A stretch of 40,524 bases of DNA, taken from positions 1 to 40,524 of the forward strand of contig JAOLYM010000001.1 of assembly GCA_028343435.1 (NCBI GenBank), read 5' to 3'. A program made the position numbers and the translations under genes. Shown here piece after piece: positions 1,494-36,046 of the stretch. Each line of letters opens with the position of its first letter. The first letter of the stretch is position 1. The notes beneath the pieces were generated by a model, which ran no database searches, was not told where the DNA came from, and saw nothing but the letters and a program-made list of their open reading frames with translations. The DNA comes from Candidatus Nitrosopelagicus sp. (GTDB lineage Archaea; Thermoproteota; Nitrososphaeria; Nitrososphaerales; Nitrosopumilaceae).

Positions 1494-3005
1494 ATGCAGA
1501 AGAGAAAAGTTGGAGAATATTCATTCACCATATCAGCAGTTTTTATATTATTTTTATCTCCTAGCATTAACGACTCATTTGCAGAAGGAATAAGAGATGT
1601 TCCAAATCTATACAAAAAAGCAAATGAACATTTTATGATTGGAGAATATCATGAAGCGTTAGAATTGTATGATAAAATTTTAGAAATTGCACCAACAAAT
1701 ACAAAAACATCACTGATGAAAGCAATTGCATTAGAAAATCTTGAGAGACATAAGGCTTCAATATTAGAATTTTACAAGGTAAATCAACAAGAACCTGATA
1801 ATATTACAGCATTGATTGGATTGGGAGTTGGTTTTGGAAATTATGGAGAATATAAGCAAGCTTTAGAATATTTTGAACAAGCCTATGAATTGTCACCAGA
1901 TAATCATGTTGTTAAAAATTATTATGAGTTTGCGACAAAAAATGTAAAAAAATATCTGTATAATGAAGCTGAAAAACCAGAAGTATTTACATTGAATATT
2001 CCAGAAACAGTACCAGCATGGATTAAAAATACCGCAGGATGGTGGGCTACAGATAAGATTCCGGATGAAGAATTTTTGAAGTCATTACAATTCCTTGTAG
2101 AAAATAATATCATCAATGTTGAATCGTCAGACAATACCATAACAAATTCATCAGTACAACCCATTCCAGCATGGATTAAAAATACCGCAGGATGGTGGGC
2201 TACAGATAAGATTCCGGATGAAGAATTTTTGAAGGGAATTAATTTTTTGATTGATAGTAATTTGCTAATAGTTGATTTGCCAGATGTGCGAGAATTATCA
2301 GAGGAAGAAGAAAAAATTAATGATAGAAATCAATGGGAATTTTCAAGGTATTTAGACAGAATTGAAAATATAGTCAATAAGGACAAAAGATACATTGAAT
2401 TTCCAAATCCAAGTAATGATGTTATTAAGAAATTCATGAGAGATTATGTAAAATGGAATTATGATCAACAAATTGAGATTGGGAATCAAGGATTCCCAAA
2501 TCCAGAGTATGTATTAATAGATGATGTATATTATTTAGAATACAAAATTTATGTAAATGATCAACCGGCGGCATTGCCATTAGATCATGTGAGTACATTG
2601 GTGAATTCATTCAAGATGTGGGAAGATATGGAATTTAATGCAAATGATGGAAAAGAAGTAAAAATAAATTTTGTAACAACGAAAACAAAAACTAATGCAA
2701 ATCTCTGGGTGACATGGGTTGTCCGAGATATGGGAGAAGGAGTTCTAGGCCATGCAAATCTTGGAAAGGGAATAGTAGAAGTTGCATTAGGCGGGTATGG
2801 CTGTGATGGAAATTTTCAACTTTTTCATGTTGATACAGTGCAATATATCATGACACATGAACTTGGTCATGGTATCGGTCTAAGACATAGCGAGGATCCA
2901 AATAGCATTATGTTTCCATCAATGAAAAATACACAATATGCATATTGTATGCTTGACGTTGATAAAAAAATTAACACAGGTTCAATAGTTTTAAAAAATG
3001 ATTAA
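1494..3005 (+). CDS. Secreted TPR protein with PAWIKNTAGWW repeats and matrixin-like metalloprotease domain
   Basis: Predicted exported zinc protease. A hydrophobic N-terminal segment (about 10-30) looks like a signal peptide. TPR-like helices cover about 36-150 (YHEALELYDKILEIAP, YKQALEYFEQAYELSP). Two copies of a short module beginning PAWIKNTAGWWATDK lie at about 174-196 and 225-247; such modules recur in secreted proteins of this archaeal group. The C-terminal half ends in the zinc motif HELGHGIGLRH, with H455, H459 and H465 as ligands and E456 as catalytic base, followed by a Met-turn SIMFPS. This is the metzincin/matrixin arrangement. A paralogue with the domains in a different order is at 23169-24794. 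Substrate unknown. Confidence 0.85.
   Translation: MQKRKVGEYSFTISAVFILFLSPSINDSFAEGIRDVPNLYKKANEHFMIGEYHEALELYDKILEIAPTNTKTSLMKAIALENLERHKASILEFYKVNQQEPDNITALIGLGVGFGNYGEYKQALEYFEQAYELSPDNHVVKNYYEFATKNVKKYLYNEAEKPEVFTLNIPETVPAWIKNTAGWWATDKIPDEEFLKSLQFLVENNIINVESSDNTITNSSVQPIPAWIKNTAGWWATDKIPDEEFLKGINFLIDSNLLIVDLPDVRELSEEEEKINDRNQWEFSRYLDRIENIVNKDKRYIEFPNPSNDVIKKFMRDYVKWNYDQQIEIGNQGFPNPEYVLIDDVYYLEYKIYVNDQPAALPLDHVSTLVNSFKMWEDMEFNANDGKEVKINFVTTKTKTNANLWVTWVVRDMGEGVLGHANLGKGIVEVALGGYGCDGNFQLFHVDTVQYIMTHELGHGIGLRHSEDPNSIMFPSMKNTQYAYCMLDVDKKINTGSIVLKND
2013..2234 (+). repeat. Identical 69-bp direct repeat inside the protease gene
   Basis: Bases 2013-2081 and 2166-2234 read identically by eye over 69 bp, 153 bp apart, each encoding the module that starts PAWIKNTAGWWATDK. 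The flanking DNA differs. Identity at silent positions suggests recent duplication or gene conversion. Confidence 0.9.
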
Positions 3006-3601
3006 CCTAACGCTCTAGAATGTTTTTGTGTATGAGGACGTTCTCCTGAGAATTTACGTCGCATATGTCCAGAAGGTCTACCATATAATAATTCCAAGAA
3101 CCAACTTTCATGTTCAATTTCTTCCATTAAGATATCCTTTGCAATATCATAAGTGGCAGGATCTTTATCATATGTCATCTTACATACAATATTCCAATTA
3201 ACAATTGCACCTTGTTCAGCTTTTAGACATTTTTCTAATATCGCTTTAATGTCCGTAGGGTTTTTTGGTAATTGTAAAAATTCACATCCAGACATTTTAG
3301 TAAATGCTTGTGCGTCATTTGGTAAACTACCACCTAGTTGAAATATTCTTTCTATACAAGATTCAAAGTGACTTAAATCCTCTAAACGTGCATCCTCAAT
3401 AATACCCTTGATGCCTTCACCTTCCATTCCAGTGCAATGCATTCTTAAATTTGTAAAGTAGTAGTATGCAGTAAATTCAACAGATGCATTAGTTATTAGC
3501 TGTTTTACTAATTTGTCCACATTCAATCCATTTTTTTTGAGAACTTCCACACCGACAACTTTTGGTTTTTTTGTTGCAGATGATTTCTTTGATGCCACCA
3601 T
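3002..3601 (-). CDS. Dps-like / ferritin-like protein
   Basis: A 199-residue four-helix-bundle protein of the ferritin superfamily. Likely iron or heme-peroxide protection: two carboxylate/histidine motifs, ARLEDLSHFE and EEIEHESWFLELL, match the helix 2 and helix 4 ExxH metal-ligand pattern. A TAYYYF stretch on helix 1 is preceded by a basic N-terminal tail (ASKKSSATKKPK) that could bind DNA. Several Cys residues (for example CTGMEGEG, SGCEFL, KCLKAE, IVCKM) recall the DPS-like (DPSL) subgroup of archaea, although I cannot assign a disulfide. The gene converges on the upstream protease gene with a 4-bp overlap of stops. A TATA-like CTTTATTCAG near 3622-3631 would give a nearly leaderless transcript. 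Confidence 0.82.
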   Translation of the reverse strand: MVASKKSSATKKPKVVGVEVLKKNGLNVDKLVKQLITNASVEFTAYYYFTNLRMHCTGMEGEGIKGIIEDARLEDLSHFESCIERIFQLGGSLPNDAQAFTKMSGCEFLQLPKNPTDIKAILEKCLKAEQGAIVNWNIVCKMTYDKDPATYDIAKDILMEEIEHESWFLELLYGRPSGHMRRKFSGERPHTQKHSRALG

Positions 3602-3740
3602 GCTGTAATTATTTTTAGGTCTGAATAAAGAGTTTCGCTGTTTAGACTAAGAATATAGAATGATTTCATGAACAAAGACATACAATTAACCAGTAGATTG
3701 GTTGTGAAGTCATATTAACTTCAAAATGGCATTAGAATAG

Positions 3741-5310: not shown

Positions 5311-5616
5311 ATGACTGAAGATTTCAAGATAGAAACACCTTACCTACCAGGAGAAAAAGGATGTAGAATTACATGGTTATTTACAGACGATGAAGAAAAA
5401 ACTCTTTACTTGAGACACGAAGATTTGATGGAAATGATTGAGATTTTAGAACACGGCACAACCGCAAAAATTGAGATGGAAGATGGCGCGAGTTCAATAT
5501 TGGTAAATTCTGATTCCACAGATTTCTTTCTAGCAGGTCAAAAATCACAAAAAATTGAAACTCTTGCCTTAAAAATTGCATTAAAAGAATTTATGAAAAA
5601 TAATCCTAATGCATAA
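5311..5616 (+). CDS. Small conserved-looking hypothetical protein
   Basis: An acidic soluble protein of 101 residues. It shows alternating beta-like segments (CRITWLFTDDEEKTLYLRHEDL, TTAKIEMEDGASSILVNSD) and a final helix ending FMKNNPNA. No catalytic motif or family is recognised. The ATG at 5311 is preceded by an AT-rich promoter region. Its stop is 2 bp from the stop of the small convergent gene at 5619-5768. Confidence 0.65.
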   Translation: MTEDFKIETPYLPGEKGCRITWLFTDDEEKTLYLRHEDLMEMIEILEHGTTAKIEMEDGASSILVNSDSTDFFLAGQKSQKIETLALKIALKEFMKNNPNA

Positions 5617-5618
5617 GA

Positions 5619-5768
5619 TCAAGATAAAGTTCCATATCCAAAACTACGAGAAGCATTTACCTTGTGAATGATTACTGCAATTAGATAACACGATGCCGTA
5701 ACGGATTTTTCAAGCCAATTACAAAATCTTCTTAATACAGATTGTTTTTTTCTATATTCTATTTTCAT
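5619..5768 (-). CDS. Small basic protein, 49 residues
   Basis: A complete frame (ATG at 5768, TGA at 5619) encodes a basic N-terminus MKIEYRKKQSVLRRF, a moderately hydrophobic middle (TASCYLIAVIIHKV) and the end RSFGYGTLS, possibly an amphipathic or membrane-associated helix. Three observations support it: the stop is 2 bp from the convergent gene's stop, the frame fills an otherwise empty gap, and a TATA-like TTTATTAAT (5787-5798, read on the minus strand) lies about 25 bp before the ATG, as expected for a leaderless message. It is divergent from cspA and shares the palindrome-bearing region with it. No family recognised. Confidence 0.5.
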   Translation of the reverse strand: MKIEYRKKQSVLRRFCNWLEKSVTASCYLIAVIIHKVNASRSFGYGTLS

Positions 5769-5808
5769 GTTTTATAATGTAGTCATAGATTAATAAATTG
5801 TATTTTTT

Positions 5809-5908
5809 TTAGGTTTTCCTAACTTTTTTTATAATAATTAGTTAGTTTTACCTAATTTATTGTAAATATTATTAGTCATAGCTAATCTAAAAAATCAGAC
5901 ATAAATAG
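5809..5908. promoter_or_regulatory. Array of three TTAG-N6-CTAA palindromes and TATA box before cspA
   Basis: Three sites fit TTAG-N6-CTAA: TTAGGTTTTCCTAA (5809-5822), TTAGTTTTACCTAA (5842-5855) and TTAGTCATAGCTAA (5872-5885). Starts are 33 and 30 bp apart, close to three helical turns, so the sites would face the same side of DNA. A TATA-like CATAAATAG (5900-5908) lies 24 bp before the cspA ATG, so transcription would begin at or near the start codon. A TATA-like element for the divergent small gene lies on the other side. This makes a two-way control region; the binding protein is unknown. Confidence 0.7.
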
Positions 5909-5931: not shown

Positions 5932-6126
5932 ATGGAAACAGGAACCGTAAAATGGTTTAACCAAACTAAAGGCTTCGGTTTTATCGAACGTGAAAATGAA
6001 GACAAAGACTTGTTTGTCCACAAGACAGAAGTTAATGGTCAGATTAGAGACGGCGATAAAGTTGAGTTTGAAATTGGTGAATCCGAAAAAGGCCCAGCCG
6101 CAACAAAAGTGAAAAAAGTAGACTAA
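5932..6126 (+). CDS. cspA: Cold-shock domain protein
   Basis: A single cold-shock domain of 64 residues that binds single-stranded RNA or DNA, acting as an RNA chaperone. The RNP1 motif KGFGFI (about 14-19) and RNP2 motif LFVHKTEV (about 27-34) are intact, and the start METGTVKWFNQTKGFGFI is very close to bacterial CspA. Cold-shock domains of this form are rare in Archaea and known in mesophilic lineages, so ancient acquisition from bacteria is plausible (inference). The short spacing from the TATA box implies little or no leader, unlike bacterial cspA genes with long thermosensing leaders. Confidence 0.95.
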   Translation: METGTVKWFNQTKGFGFIERENEDKDLFVHKTEVNGQIRDGDKVEFEIGESEKGPAATKVKKVD

Positions 6127-6307: not shown

Positions 6308-9331
<3,024 letters not shown>

Positions 9332-26185: not shown

Positions 26186-26653
26186 ATGAAAAAGAAGACA
26201 TCACGTAGATTAGATTCAATCAAGGCAGCACATGAATCTGAGAAAACAATTTCCATTTCAGATAGAGTGGAAGATTATCTAGAGGTTATTTCAGAGCTAG
26301 TAGATATGAAAGGATATGCCGCAACATTAGATATTTCAAGATATATGAATGTCAGTGCTCCAAGTGTTACAAAAATGCTCAAAAAATTAGATGCAGAAGG
26401 ATTTTTAGAATATGAAAAATATTATGGAATTAATTTAACAGAAAAAGGTCAGAAAATTGCAGACATGATAAAACAAAAACATGGAATTTTACTAGAGTTT
26501 TTTGAAATTTTAGGAATTGGTAAAGAAATTGCAAATCAAGATGCAGAAGGAATTGAACATCATCTAAATCCAAAAACAATTAGACAAATTAGAAAATTTG
26601 TGACATTTTTCAAAGCAAATCCAAAGATGATGAATAGTTTTAATGAGTTCTAA
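26186..26653 (+). CDS. MntR-type (DtxR family) metal-dependent regulator
   Basis: A 155-residue regulator: winged-helix DNA-binding domain (about 26-95, with VSAPSVTKMLKKLDAEGFLEYEKYYGI) and metal-binding/dimerisation domain (about 96-150), without the SH3-like domain of iron-type DtxR. By comparison with Bacillus MntR, all six metal ligands appear conserved: D30, E33, H99, E121, E124 and H125 (motifs EDYLE, KHG, DAEGIEHHLNP). An Asp at the first site, where DtxR has Met, is typical of Mn-responsive proteins. A 24-residue basic N-terminal extension is extra. It probably represses metal uptake genes and itself. Confidence 0.9.
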   Translation: MKKKTSRRLDSIKAAHESEKTISISDRVEDYLEVISELVDMKGYAATLDISRYMNVSAPSVTKMLKKLDAEGFLEYEKYYGINLTEKGQKIADMIKQKHGILLEFFEILGIGKEIANQDAEGIEHHLNPKTIRQIRKFVTFFKANPKMMNSFNEF

Positions 26654-32457: not shown

Positions 32458-33255
32458 TCACTCTGCAGAAAGATCCCAATAATTGGCATTTTCTTGTTTA
32501 TCAATTGGTTTTTCAAGACTTTTCCATTCTTTAAAGGAGTGGACATATAGTTTGACGTTTGGTACACCTATTGATTTTAGAGCATAATATGCCAATCCAG
32601 ACAATGTTCCTACACTTCCACAATATGTGATTATTTCTGCATCCTCAGAAATACCTCTATTTTTTAGAAGAGTTTTCATGCCCTCTTTTGTTCTAAGAAT
32701 TTTTCCATCTGTGGCAAGTGTTCTGTACGGGATGTTAATTGCACCAGGAATATGTTGTTCAAGATAATTCAAACGCTCACGATTATCAATTATTACAACA
32801 TTTTTGTTTTCTTTAACTTTTTCAAGATATTCAGCAGTAGCCATAATTTCAGGATTAATTTTTACAGAGTGAGTTGCAGTTTCAATCTCCGGTACTTCAG
32901 TGGAAATTTCATATCCAAGATCTTTCCATTGTGAGAATGTTACATCCAATAATTTTACATCTTCATGCCCAATGTATTGTAAAGCCCAAACAACTCTAGA
33001 AGATAACGCGCCAAAGGTATCATCATAGATTACAGTAGGAGTTTCATCAGAGATTCCCAAATCTTGTGCAATTTTTTGTATGGATTCTGAACTATCGTCA
33101 GCAAGAAGTTTTGCGAGTGGAAGATTTACAGCATTTGTTATATGACCTTGCTGATATTCTTGTTCTCGTCTAACATCAACAATTCGAATTGAATTTTCTT
33201 GAATTTTTTCACGAAGAAGTTTTGAATTAATTATTGGAATATCAGAATCAATCAT
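32458..33255 (-). CDS. Two-domain rhodanese (sulfurtransferase)
   Basis: Transfers sulfane sulfur from thiosulfate or 3-mercaptopyruvate to an acceptor. Two rhodanese domains are visible: the first (about 10-120) is inactive, with Asp in YDDTFGALSSR where the catalytic Cys would be. The second (about 140-265) has YCGSVGTLSG with the active Cys (residue 212 from the start chosen here). This asymmetry is normal for SseA/TST proteins. I choose ATG at 33255, which gives an ATGA overlap with the reductase stop. An earlier ATG at 33264 would add MCC. Coupled expression with the reductase suggests sulfur exchange between the two. Confidence 0.9.
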   Translation of the reverse strand: MIDSDIPIINSKLLREKIQENSIRIVDVRREQEYQQGHITNAVNLPLAKLLADDSSESIQKIAQDLGISDETPTVIYDDTFGALSSRVVWALQYIGHEDVKLLDVTFSQWKDLGYEISTEVPEIETATHSVKINPEIMATAEYLEKVKENKNVVIIDNRERLNYLEQHIPGAINIPYRTLATDGKILRTKEGMKTLLKNRGISEDAEIITYCGSVGTLSGLAYYALKSIGVPNVKLYVHSFKEWKSLEKPIDKQENANYWDLSAE

Positions 33256-35054
33256 GCAGCACATTCACCTTTTCCAGTTACGGTGTGATAATTTGTATCA
33301 CTTCCATAATCCATGTAGAAATCAGGTTCATCTTCAACATTTGGAGGAACTATGAGAGGTGCAATTGCTTTTTTGATATCATCGACACCAGTAATTTTTG
33401 AGGATTCATTTCCACTAACAACTCTATCAATCCATTTAGCTAGTGTATCATCAGATTGTTTATTTTCTTTAAACAGTTCAATAATTTTTAGAATTACAGG
33501 AATTATACGTTTTACAGGAACACGTGCGGTATGATGACCAAGCATTGCATCTTCATCGAATTTACCTCCTAATGACATCGTATAATTTGGGAACATGTCA
33601 GTTCCATGTCTACCACCACCACCATAAAATCCGATTGTTGCAATTTGGTGTTGTCCACAAGAGTTAGGGCATCCACTAATTTTGATTGTGGAATCTTTCA
33701 AATCATCATCTTCATCATAATTTAGTTCTAAGAATTTTCTTTGTACTTCTTTTGCCAACCTGTGAGAGTTAGTTAATGCAAGATTACAAGAGGTTGTACC
33801 AGAACACCCTACAGCAGATGCCATTGTTAATGAACCAGTTTTAGCAAGCCCATTTTCAATTAGTCGAGAATACATTGATTTGAGATCATCGTCATGAACA
33901 TAACGAATTACAATATTTTGTGAAAATCCATTTCTGGCAAATCCCTCAGCAGAATAATCACGGATAATTTCTGCGACACTTCTTAGTTGATTAGCTGTAA
34001 TATCTCCAGCCTCTAAACCAATGAATACTGAATTAAAACCAGATTGAGATTGTTTTTCAACATTAGTTTTTTCCCATCTTGCATATCCATCAGGAACAGA
34101 AGCAGATTCATCATTAACAGATATCGGTCTTTGAATCTCATTTACGCTATCATCAATATTTAATTTAACAATCACAGATTGTGTAGCTTTTACAACAGCT
34201 CTTTCTTTTAACACAAGGTTTTGGAATTTTTCCCAACCTAGATCATTTACCAAATAACGCATTCTATTTCGTGATAGGTTTTTTCGGTCTCCCATTCTAT
34301 CGAAAATTCTAATTACGGCCATTGATGTGTAAAGTAAATCTTCAACAGGAGTAAAATCTTCTAATTGATGACCAACAAATGAACGGTTTCCTAATCCGCC
34401 ACCTAAGAAAATTTTAAAGCCTTTTCTTTTTTCTCCATCAATTTCTTGGATTTGAGGTAAAAGGCCAACATCTACAATTCGTATCATTCCATGTTTTTCA
34501 CAACATGTGAAATTGAATTTGAATTTACGTGGAAGTCCTTGACATATTGGATTTCTAAGCATAAATCTTGCAATAGCTAATGCATACGGAGTTGTATCAA
34601 AAATTTCATCTTTACAAACACCAGACATAGGACTACACATTACATTTCGAACAGTATTTCCACATGCTTCACGAGATGTCATTCCAACATCAGAAAGTGA
34701 TTGCATTATTTCAGAAACATCTTCAAGTATTACCCAGTGAAGTTGAATATTTTCACGAGTTGAAAAATGTGCACTGCCAATTGAATACATCTCACTTAAC
34801 TGAGCAATTTTTTCTAATTGATTTGGATATACTTGTCCTGCAGGAACTTTGATTCTAACCATCGCATAATCATCAGTCATACGTGTACCGTATGCACCAT
34901 GTTGTAGACGGAATCTACGGAACATATCAGGATCAATCTTGCCTTGTCGGAATAGCTTCACGGTTTCAGCAAAATTTTCTGCTTCTTGTCTTCTGGACCA
35001 ATCAATCTTTGACTGTTTATCAGCCGGTTTTGATGGTCTTAGCTGTTGTGCCAT
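33252..35054 (-). CDS. Ferredoxin-type nitrite/sulfite reductase (siroheme, 4Fe-4S)
   Basis: A six-electron reductase of 600 residues. Two repeats of the ferrodoxin-like/siroheme fold are present (GAYGTRMTDDYAMVRIKVPAGQV; FSTRENIQLHWV; TSREACGNTVRNVMCSPMSG). The cluster ligands are in CSGTTSC (C-x5-C) and CPNSC (C-x3-C) near 415-470. Arg/Lys-rich siroheme contacts are in the usual regions. Sequence alone does not decide sulfite versus nitrite as substrate; the adjoining rhodanese favours sulfite assimilation. A TATA-like TTATAA on the minus strand (35080-35089) lies about 30 bp before the ATG. Confidence 0.92.
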   Translation of the reverse strand: MAQQLRPSKPADKQSKIDWSRRQEAENFAETVKLFRQGKIDPDMFRRFRLQHGAYGTRMTDDYAMVRIKVPAGQVYPNQLEKIAQLSEMYSIGSAHFSTRENIQLHWVILEDVSEIMQSLSDVGMTSREACGNTVRNVMCSPMSGVCKDEIFDTTPYALAIARFMLRNPICQGLPRKFKFNFTCCEKHGMIRIVDVGLLPQIQEIDGEKRKGFKIFLGGGLGNRSFVGHQLEDFTPVEDLLYTSMAVIRIFDRMGDRKNLSRNRMRYLVNDLGWEKFQNLVLKERAVVKATQSVIVKLNIDDSVNEIQRPISVNDESASVPDGYARWEKTNVEKQSQSGFNSVFIGLEAGDITANQLRSVAEIIRDYSAEGFARNGFSQNIVIRYVHDDDLKSMYSRLIENGLAKTGSLTMASAVGCSGTTSCNLALTNSHRLAKEVQRKFLELNYDEDDDLKDSTIKISGCPNSCGQHQIATIGFYGGGGRHGTDMFPNYTMSLGGKFDEDAMLGHHTARVPVKRIIPVILKIIELFKENKQSDDTLAKWIDRVVSGNESSKITGVDDIKKAIAPLIVPPNVEDEPDFYMDYGSDTNYHTVTGKGECAA

Positions 35055-35149: not shown

Positions 35150-35163
35150 TTAGTATTACCTAA
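35150..35163. promoter_or_regulatory. Possible TTAG-N6-CTAA palindrome between the reductase and thi4
   Basis: TTAGTATTACCTAA differs by one base from the middle site before cspA (TTAGTTTTACCTAA). It lies 29 bp before the thi4 ATG and just upstream of its AT-rich TATA region. A weaker relative, ATAGGTAAAGTTAC, lies at 35095-35108. One exact TTAG-N6-CTAA site is expected by chance in a window of this composition, so this site is tentative. Confidence 0.35.
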
Positions 35164-35191: not shown

Positions 35192-36046
35192 ATGAGTTTG
35201 AGAATGAAAAATTTCATGCAAGAATCAGTTAACGAACAGAGACCAGATAAAATTTTTGCAGATGCAAAAGAAGTAGAAATTACTAGAGCAATTGCAAAAG
35301 AATTCTATGATGTTTTACAGGATAGAGCAGAAAGTGATATCATAATTATAGGAGCTGGACCTGCAGGACTAACTGCATCTAGAGAATTATCATTAATGGG
35401 TTACAAAGTTTTAGTTATTGAACAAAATAACTACCTAGGCGGAGGATATTGGCTTGGAGGTTACATGATGAATCCTGTAACAGTACGTGCACCTGCACAA
35501 AAAATTTGGGACGAGATAGGAATTCCTTACAAAAAAGTAGGAGAAGGATTGTATCTTACACCAGGTCCACATGCAGTTTCTAAATTAATTGGAGCCGCAT
35601 GTGATGCAGGAGTGAAATTTTTGAATCTAACAAAATTTGATGACTTAGTTATGAGACATGGAAGAGTTGCAGGAATTGTTGTAAACTGGATGCCAGTTTC
35701 AGCACTACCAAGAAACATTACATGTGTGGATCCTGTTGCGTTAGAAGCAAAAATGATTATTGATGCATCAGGACATGATTCAGTTGCAGTAAAGAGACTA
35801 GTAGATAGACAACTAGTAGAATGGAAAGGAATGGATCCAATGTGGGTAGAAGATGGAGAAGAACACGTGGTACATAAAACAGGAGAAGTATATCCAGGAT
35901 TAGTCGCTGCAGGAATGTCAGTCACAGAGACGTATGGATTAGCGAGAATGGGACCAACATTTGGTTCAATGCTTTACTCTGGAAAAAAAGCAGCTGAGAT
36001 AACTGATCAAAAGATTAAAGAATTTGATAATAAGATTCCAAAATAA
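35192..36046 (+). CDS. thi4: Thiamine thiazole synthase (Thi4), Cys type
   Basis: Makes the adenylated thiazole precursor of thiamine from NAD and glycine. 284 residues with dinucleotide-binding DIIIIGAGPAGLTASRELS (about 49-67), GGGYWLGGYMMNPVTVR (about 83-99), IIDASGHDS and the terminal GPTFGSMLYSGKKAAE. At the position just before the conserved VDP the residue is Cys (C178, TCVDP). In yeast this position is the sulfur-donating Cys that makes the enzyme single-turnover, whereas Methanocaldococcus-type enzymes have His and use free sulfide. The first ATG is kept; the ATG at 35204 is an alternative. Confidence 0.95.
   Translation: MSLRMKNFMQESVNEQRPDKIFADAKEVEITRAIAKEFYDVLQDRAESDIIIIGAGPAGLTASRELSLMGYKVLVIEQNNYLGGGYWLGGYMMNPVTVRAPAQKIWDEIGIPYKKVGEGLYLTPGPHAVSKLIGAACDAGVKFLNLTKFDDLVMRHGRVAGIVVNWMPVSALPRNITCVDPVALEAKMIIDASGHDSVAVKRLVDRQLVEWKGMDPMWVEDGEEHVVHKTGEVYPGLVAAGMSVTETYGLARMGPTFGSMLYSGKKAAEITDQKIKEFDNKIPK

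Follow-up and report, generated by a model that had tools for sequence, protein, structure and literature searches.

The 40,524-nucleotide stretch of Candidatus Nitrosopelagicus DNA analyzed here (the window) carries three short palindromes between a cold-shock gene, csp, and a small divergent reading frame, and this arrangement raises the questions of which gene the sites serve and which regulator binds them. A preliminary description proposed that a DtxR-like or other dimeric regulator controls the cold-shock gene (there named cspA) from an array of sites on the same face of the helix. The features of the locus are as follows.

5809..5822, no strand: site 1, TTAGGTTTTCCTAA; proximal site for the divergent gene, 40 bp from the end of the site to the ATG
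5842..5855, no strand: site 2, TTAGTTTTACCTAA; middle palindrome of the array
5872..5885, no strand: site 3, TTAGTCATAGCTAA; distal site for the divergent gene (start at -117), and of the three the closest to csp, 46 bp from its end to the ATG
5619..5768, minus strand: remnant, 49 codons, of a ~96-aa membrane-protein gene, recognized from translations by eye and from lengths; no Pfam family
5790..5797, minus strand: TATA-like element TTTATTAA of the divergent gene, by sequence inspection only
5901..5907, plus strand: TATA-like element of csp (ATAAATA), separated from site 3 by 15 bp, likewise by inspection only
5932..6126, plus strand: csp, encoding a 64-aa cold-shock domain protein (Pfam CSD, 4.2e-23)

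Clustering and frequency of the palindromes

The pattern TTAG-N6-CTAA is present at all three positions, with starts 33 and 30 bp apart, and the triple far exceeds chance, as first proposed. The window contains five exact matches where shuffled sequences predict 0.84 (the earlier guess was about one or two per window), and no triple that fits into 77 bp appeared in 3 Mb of sequence generated from the window dinucleotides, nor in 3 Mb generated from local intergenic dinucleotides. The two further exact matches in the window are at 7839, inside the 23S rRNA gene, and at 35150, in a promoter. Site 1, TTAGGTTTTCCTAA, does share 12 of 14 bases with TTAGGTTAGCCTAA, a part of the DtxR/IdeR box. At the gathering score, Rfam yielded no RNA family at the palindromes and matched only rRNA families.

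The bare pattern is not enriched, either in the 849-kb assembly (27 sites, versus 53 for a reversed control pattern) or in the one-contig relative G025 (45 sites, versus 82); the signal resides in clustering, promoter position, and conservation, and not in the raw count. Of the 45 G025 copies in this raw count, 30 are in ORFs, which were called mechanically, 14 are intergenic, and one is taken to be in 23S rRNA from its identity with the match at window position 7839; five of the 30 ORF copies are tandem repeats within one ORF. Tandem copies in G000, TTAGAAGGTGCTAA, and in G025, TTAGAGGGTGCTAA, were considered as operators and rejected, the repeats lying inside one ORF of ~715 aa. These box-mimicking 15-bp tandem repeats in coding sequence (G000:C34:28389-28462 and G025:C1:629607-629710) belong to an ORF that we take to encode a pentapeptide-type repeat protein.

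The box at iron-sulfur and metal gene promoters

The match at 35150 has the following context.

35150..35163, no strand: single box, TTAGTATTACCTAA, between the sulfite/nitrite reductase gene (33252-35054, minus strand) and Thi4 (35192-36046, plus strand); the reductase-Thi4 intergenic regions of G025 and G114 contain the identical box

The box also precedes other genes, several of them at a near-constant distance. Among 31 genus genomes, the sufC promoter is readable in 23 (seven have no sufC match and in one it is cut), and all 23 carry the box, with a gap of 40-41 bp to the start codon; the half-sites of these boxes are constant and the spacer has four variants. A 40-41-bp gap also occurs at sufB, apbC, zinc-containing-ferredoxin-like genes, and two cysteine-rich genes of G114. 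Other gaps are 37 bp (FAD/NAD reductase), 46 bp (csp), 51 bp (the G025 zinc-ribbon gene), 28-56 bp (Thi4), and 12-13 bp (an operon encoding a 70-aa protein and a ferredoxin), and for multicopper oxidase (MCO) genes they are 31-60 bp in the loci with paired boxes and 41 bp in G114. SufB and SufC score over the NCBIfam cut-off, and the other named targets are ApbC/NUBPL and MCO, sulfite reductase, Thi4, and 4Fe-4S ferredoxins, with apbC and sulfite reductase of G025 named on the G000 or window copy.

Paired boxes were sought across the family, and in a scan of 250 family genomes 139 matched, versus 23 for the reversed control. Thirty pair loci, one per genome, comprise 28 MCO promoters and two promoters of a membrane-protein gene described below. 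Of the MCO promoters, 23 were assigned by script and five (L140-L144) by eye, with a Pfam match in addition for L140. In both of the MCO operons that were followed further, those of G025 and G114, the next gene encodes a ZIP-like transporter, with a Pfam match below the cut-off.

Two one-contig genomes give a broader view of the boxed genes. The 14 intergenic sites of G025 include three in the csp array, two in the MCO promoter, and two that are tied to no gene (405470 and 911050); the remaining seven are single sites that precede sufC, sufB, apbC, sulfite reductase/Thi4, an FAD/NAD reductase gene, a zinc-containing-ferredoxin-like gene, and a zinc-ribbon gene. G114, a single contig from another genus (g36), has 51 sites, from which 20 stretches were chosen; ten have the box before a gene, nine have it in or overlapping an ORF, and one is tied to no gene. 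The ten boxed genes are sufC, MCO, Thi4/sulfite reductase, a ferredoxin gene, the 70-aa/ferredoxin operon, the membrane-protein gene, two small cysteine-rich genes, and two unnamed genes.

Both cysteine-rich genes are tiny (57 and 61 aa, with no Pfam family over the cut-off), and their promoters carry three abutting boxes (L265, 1367-1408) and two abutting boxes (L267, 1286-1313). A ferritin-like gene at 3002-3601 in the window has a box with one mismatch 13 bp before it, at 3615-3628, but was rejected as a target: the box is kept neither in L153 nor in any of the 10 stretches, among 11 further ones from the genus, in which the gene was found.

Among the boxed genes we thus find iron or metal genes and iron-using genes; the zinc-ribbon genes and the membrane-protein gene are neutral as regards membership, and some targets, namely the zinc-ribbon and small cysteine-rich genes, have no evident link to iron. 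The boxed genes form a predicted metal/Fe-S regulon.

Candidate regulators

Two DtxR-family proteins are candidates for binding the box.

26186..26653, plus strand: DtxR-family paralog A, MntR-like, the second-choice candidate regulator; best structure match E 2.4e-27, NCBIfam MntR 135.1 bits versus a cut-off of 138
G000:C34:23310-23507 (locus L227), outside the window: C-domain of paralog B (gene at L227 769-1233, minus strand), IdeR-like, the favored candidate; closest to chains of SloR (an iron-dependent repressor), DtxR, and IdeR

The DtxR C-domain (PF02742) scores over the cut-off in 31 of 31 genus genomes, with two matches in 21, and two DtxR-family matches are present in all five genus genomes that are at least 90% complete. 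Paralog B has the motifs EHHM and SPRGREIP. Among NCBIfam models it scores best with a thermophile MntR, at 65.7 of 350 bits, far below the cut-off, so that "IdeR-like" is an interpretation and not a curated assignment. Exact boxes are absent from the 200 bp upstream of the DtxR genes themselves (0 of 33 gene rows), giving no sign of autoregulation. Regulation by Fur or by Rrf2/IscR finds little footing: Rrf2 was over the cut-off in none of seven tested genomes and FUR in one of the seven (G033), and G025 and G114, which both carry the box, have neither Rrf2 nor Fur over the cut-off, with weak partial matches or none. The early guess of a DtxR-like dimeric regulator gains support from a DtxR consensus that holds two units of the box (see below), from the DtxR proteins encoded, and from predicted targets that are mostly Fe-S or metal genes.

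An alternative is that a non-DtxR regulator binds the boxes, most plausibly an ArsR-like 103-aa protein that is encoded beside the MCO-ZIP operon and would sense Cu, Zn, or redox state. Its gene lies within the MCO cluster at the loci inspected, and is present in 20 of the 31 genus genomes, many of which are incomplete, and in five of five at 90% completeness or above; MCO and ZIP among the targets would suggest Cu besides Fe. The protein matches NCBIfam ArsR metalloregulator models at E 0.0035-0.0055, far below the cut-off, and has no Pfam match. However, five of the G025 targets are Fe-S genes (sufC, sufB, apbC, sulfite reductase, and the zinc-containing-ferredoxin-like gene), and the box is one unit of the DtxR box; we regard an ArsR-like regulator as a credible but rather unlikely rival. 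Five genomes with no MCO at the usual place (G026, G011, G004, G002, and G008; L367-L370 and L372) retain the ArsR-like gene as well as the box at sufC, a combination that does not discriminate between a DtxR-type and an ArsR-like protein. A DtxR-type regulator, with paralog B as its favored candidate, remains our preferred reading.

A divergent membrane-protein gene as predicted original owner of the array

The divergent gene was first described as having 49 residues. An ORF of this length is present, but it is not a complete gene; relatives have an intact gene of ~96 aa, of which this ORF is a truncated remnant. An intact 96-101-aa gene occupies the same place in five same-genus genomes (G009, G013, G019, G027, and G028), and eight genus genomes, including the window's, have a remnant or unrelated sequence, with 174-220 bp between the 101-aa neighbor gene and the array. 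The distance from that neighbor to site 1 is 192 bp in the window, versus 332-333 bp in the three genomes that have both the neighbor and an intact divergent gene. The 101-aa gene itself (window 5311-5616) has no Pfam family; it is near the array in the genus loci compared, and is a shorter ORF in L145.

The membrane protein has no Pfam or NCBIfam family. A profile built on it finds matches in 118 of 250 family genomes, a few of them fragments, spread over 11 of 22 genera, and 50 of these loci were read: the 30 best, a few of which had first been met via the pattern, and 20 lower-ranked ones from across the genera, with promoters unseen at the time of choice. At least one exact box lies within 200 bp upstream of the gene in 50 of 50 loci and at least two in 47; because the orthologous rows are related, Fisher and hypergeometric values computed on them should not be taken as strict probabilities. 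The gap from the nearest box to the start codon is 40 bp in 47 loci, 42 bp in one, and 46 bp in two; outside the membrane-gene promoter, the first 29 loci contain one exact box in their remaining 86,395 bp. In most loci of other genera the promoter has abutting 14-bp pairs at -54/-68, in some with an additional site at -103 or pair at -103/-117. The sites in the window's genus are at -54, -87, and -117, the outermost positions being as in other genera and the inner ones differing, and site 3 is at -117 even in genomes without an adjacent csp. By orthology of these promoters, the array is ancestrally the control region of the divergent ~96-aa membrane-protein gene. The suggestion of a same-face array fits the 33- and 30-bp spacing of this genus, but not the 14-bp (abutting) or 35-bp spacing of others; as a general rule we reject same-face phasing, abutting 14-bp pairs being the commoner form of the membrane-gene promoter.

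Across 12 complete genus arrays, half-site bases are invariant at 24 of 24 columns, compared with 10 of 18 in the spacers and 20 of 35 between sites (30 of 53 together). These 12 rows come from loci already seen to hold an array and were positioned on the sequence of site 1; G013, where a contig end cuts the array, and G016, which has csp and no array, were left out. The arrays of G019, G028, G013, and G027 were first met by the pattern, and all four were met again via the membrane protein, that of G027 also via csp. In the eight genomes with a decayed membrane gene, 66 of 77 array columns are invariant versus 35 of 61 in the 5' flank, where the dead gene starts, so the array outlived the gene; within these eight, the contrast between half-sites (24 of 24) and the rest of the array (42 of 53) is weaker. 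Conservation in relatives, which had been suggested as a check, is thus borne out both by the 12 arrays and by the membrane-gene loci. The palindromes look like true binding sites for a regulator, and like part of an iron-type (DtxR-like) regulon that marine ammonia-oxidizing archaea share.

The cold-shock gene as a neighbor of the array

As the array outlived the membrane gene, csp may now use it. A stronger proposal, the original one, gives the array a dedicated role in controlling the cold-shock gene. It would be consistent with retention of all three sites in 10 of the 11 genus genomes that have csp at the locus, with the greater invariance of the array than of its flank in the eight decayed-gene genomes, and with a distance from site 3 to csp of 46 or 47 bp in nine loci. 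However, among 59 csp upstream regions (165 bp, with some contigs counted twice) the box is absent from 50, and all nine positives are at this locus. The array and csp also occur apart: in G019 and G028 the array and an intact divergent gene are followed by 23S rRNA instead of csp, and in G016 csp directly follows the 101-aa neighbor, with array and divergent gene both absent. The position of site 3 at -117 of the membrane gene where csp is not adjacent likewise argues against dedicated control of csp, which we consider improbable, and none of the observations makes csp a necessary target. Box presence follows the membrane gene and not csp, and we reject cspA as the ancestral target; the initial claim of cold-shock control is correspondingly weakened, csp promoters elsewhere having no box.

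The csp gene, which is convergent with the 23S and 16S rRNA genes, is probably a later neighbor of the array, and may have taken over its sites. A fuller scenario, which we put forward tentatively as a possibility, is of a family-wide metal regulon of marine ammonia-oxidizing archaea, whose operators are arrays of DtxR boxes, each for a single dimer, set almost a fixed distance from the archaeal TATA; in one lineage csp would have settled on the far side of such an array, the original gene would then have died, and csp would have been captured into the regulon. Another csp copy (e.g., in L015-L017, L020, and L035-L038) has a different conserved upstream stretch, around GAGCTTAGGCATGCATGGTCTTA, which may be either a separate operator or a structured part of the 5' UTR.

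Coincidence in AT-rich intergenic DNA, or an RNA hairpin or terminator element, is very hard to credit: the region is 24% GC and the palindromes would make short hairpins if transcribed, but neither model gave a triple in 3 Mb, every one of the orthologous membrane-gene promoters read has the box, nearly always (47) at one fixed place, the sites lie upstream of TATA-like boxes, and Rfam at gathering score reports no family other than rRNA.

Comparison with known operators

A single 19-bp DtxR box is occupied by two dimers, on opposite faces of the DNA. The iron box of Corynebacterium DtxR/IdeR is TTAGGTTAG(G/C)CTAACCTAA, 19 bp in length (PMC1382209), and in the consensus given there TTAG-N6-CTAA occurs exactly twice, as overlapping units with an offset of 5 bp; the same source also has a predicted box before an Fe-S assembly system of C. 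jeikeium. The predicted archaeal operators are like this consensus in their TTAG...CTAA half-sites and N6 spacing. They differ in being single 14-bp units or arrays with start steps of 14, 19, 30, 33, or 35 bp, and neither the 5-bp overlap nor the full 19-bp DtxR palindrome is found among the archaeal sites read. They differ also in belonging to archaeal TATA/BRE promoters.

Other operators offer looser parallels. Paralog A matches Bacillus MntR structures over most of its length (residues 27-154); the Bacillus MntR box is not known to have the form TTAG-N6-CTAA, and, in a further difference from MntR, the assigned archaeal targets are mostly Fe-S genes, with no Mn transporter among them. SlyA/MarR-type palindromes, TTAG-N4-CTAA, have identical half-site letters with a spacer of 4 versus 6 in the archaeal box, and this pattern occurs once in the window, within the 23S rRNA gene at 7549. 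A copper-limitation motif of Nitrososphaera viennensis, TTCSGSMTTTGWACYANT, lies 35-70 bp before start codons (PMC7785015). As described there, it too is a promoter motif of an ammonia-oxidizing archaeon, in some cases near multicopper oxidases, but it belongs to a soil lineage and has another sequence, which, compared by eye, does not contain TTAG-N6-CTAA.

Proposed mechanism and implications

Our preferred reading, which we hold to be reasonably probable, is that in Nitrosopumilaceae a metal-dependent regulator of the DtxR type, most likely paralog B, has TTAG-N6-CTAA as its operator, and that the window array stems from a decayed membrane gene with csp as a possible user. One dimer would occupy each 14-bp palindrome. 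At the membrane gene, sufC, sufB, apbC, and a ferredoxin gene, the box closest to the gene ends 40-41 bp before the start and, as judged by eye, ~10-15 bp upstream of a TATA-like element; a bound dimer would therefore adjoin the BRE/TATA and would alter recruitment of TFB/TBP according to Fe or Mn. The near-constant offset upstream of BRE/TATA suggests contact with the basal machinery, and our guess is that activation fits slightly better than occlusion. By orthology, the three sites of the window belong to the ~96-aa membrane-protein gene, and they would be a multi-site form of the operator. In the window's lineage that gene would have decayed while the array stayed, with csp as the intact adjacent gene that could use it.

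Metal supply matters to marine ammonia-oxidizing archaea. It is the subject of PMC9723733. Our literature search, for which most subscription papers and preprints were outside reach, returned no metal-responsive operator for the marine lineage and no report of a TTAG-N6-CTAA regulon. The box can be read in Nitrosopumilaceae genomes and gives a testable list of metal-controlled genes, among which it marks a membrane protein of unassigned function as a likely member of the metal response. It could also give metatranscriptomes a readout of metal stress, and the window may show promoter capture under way.
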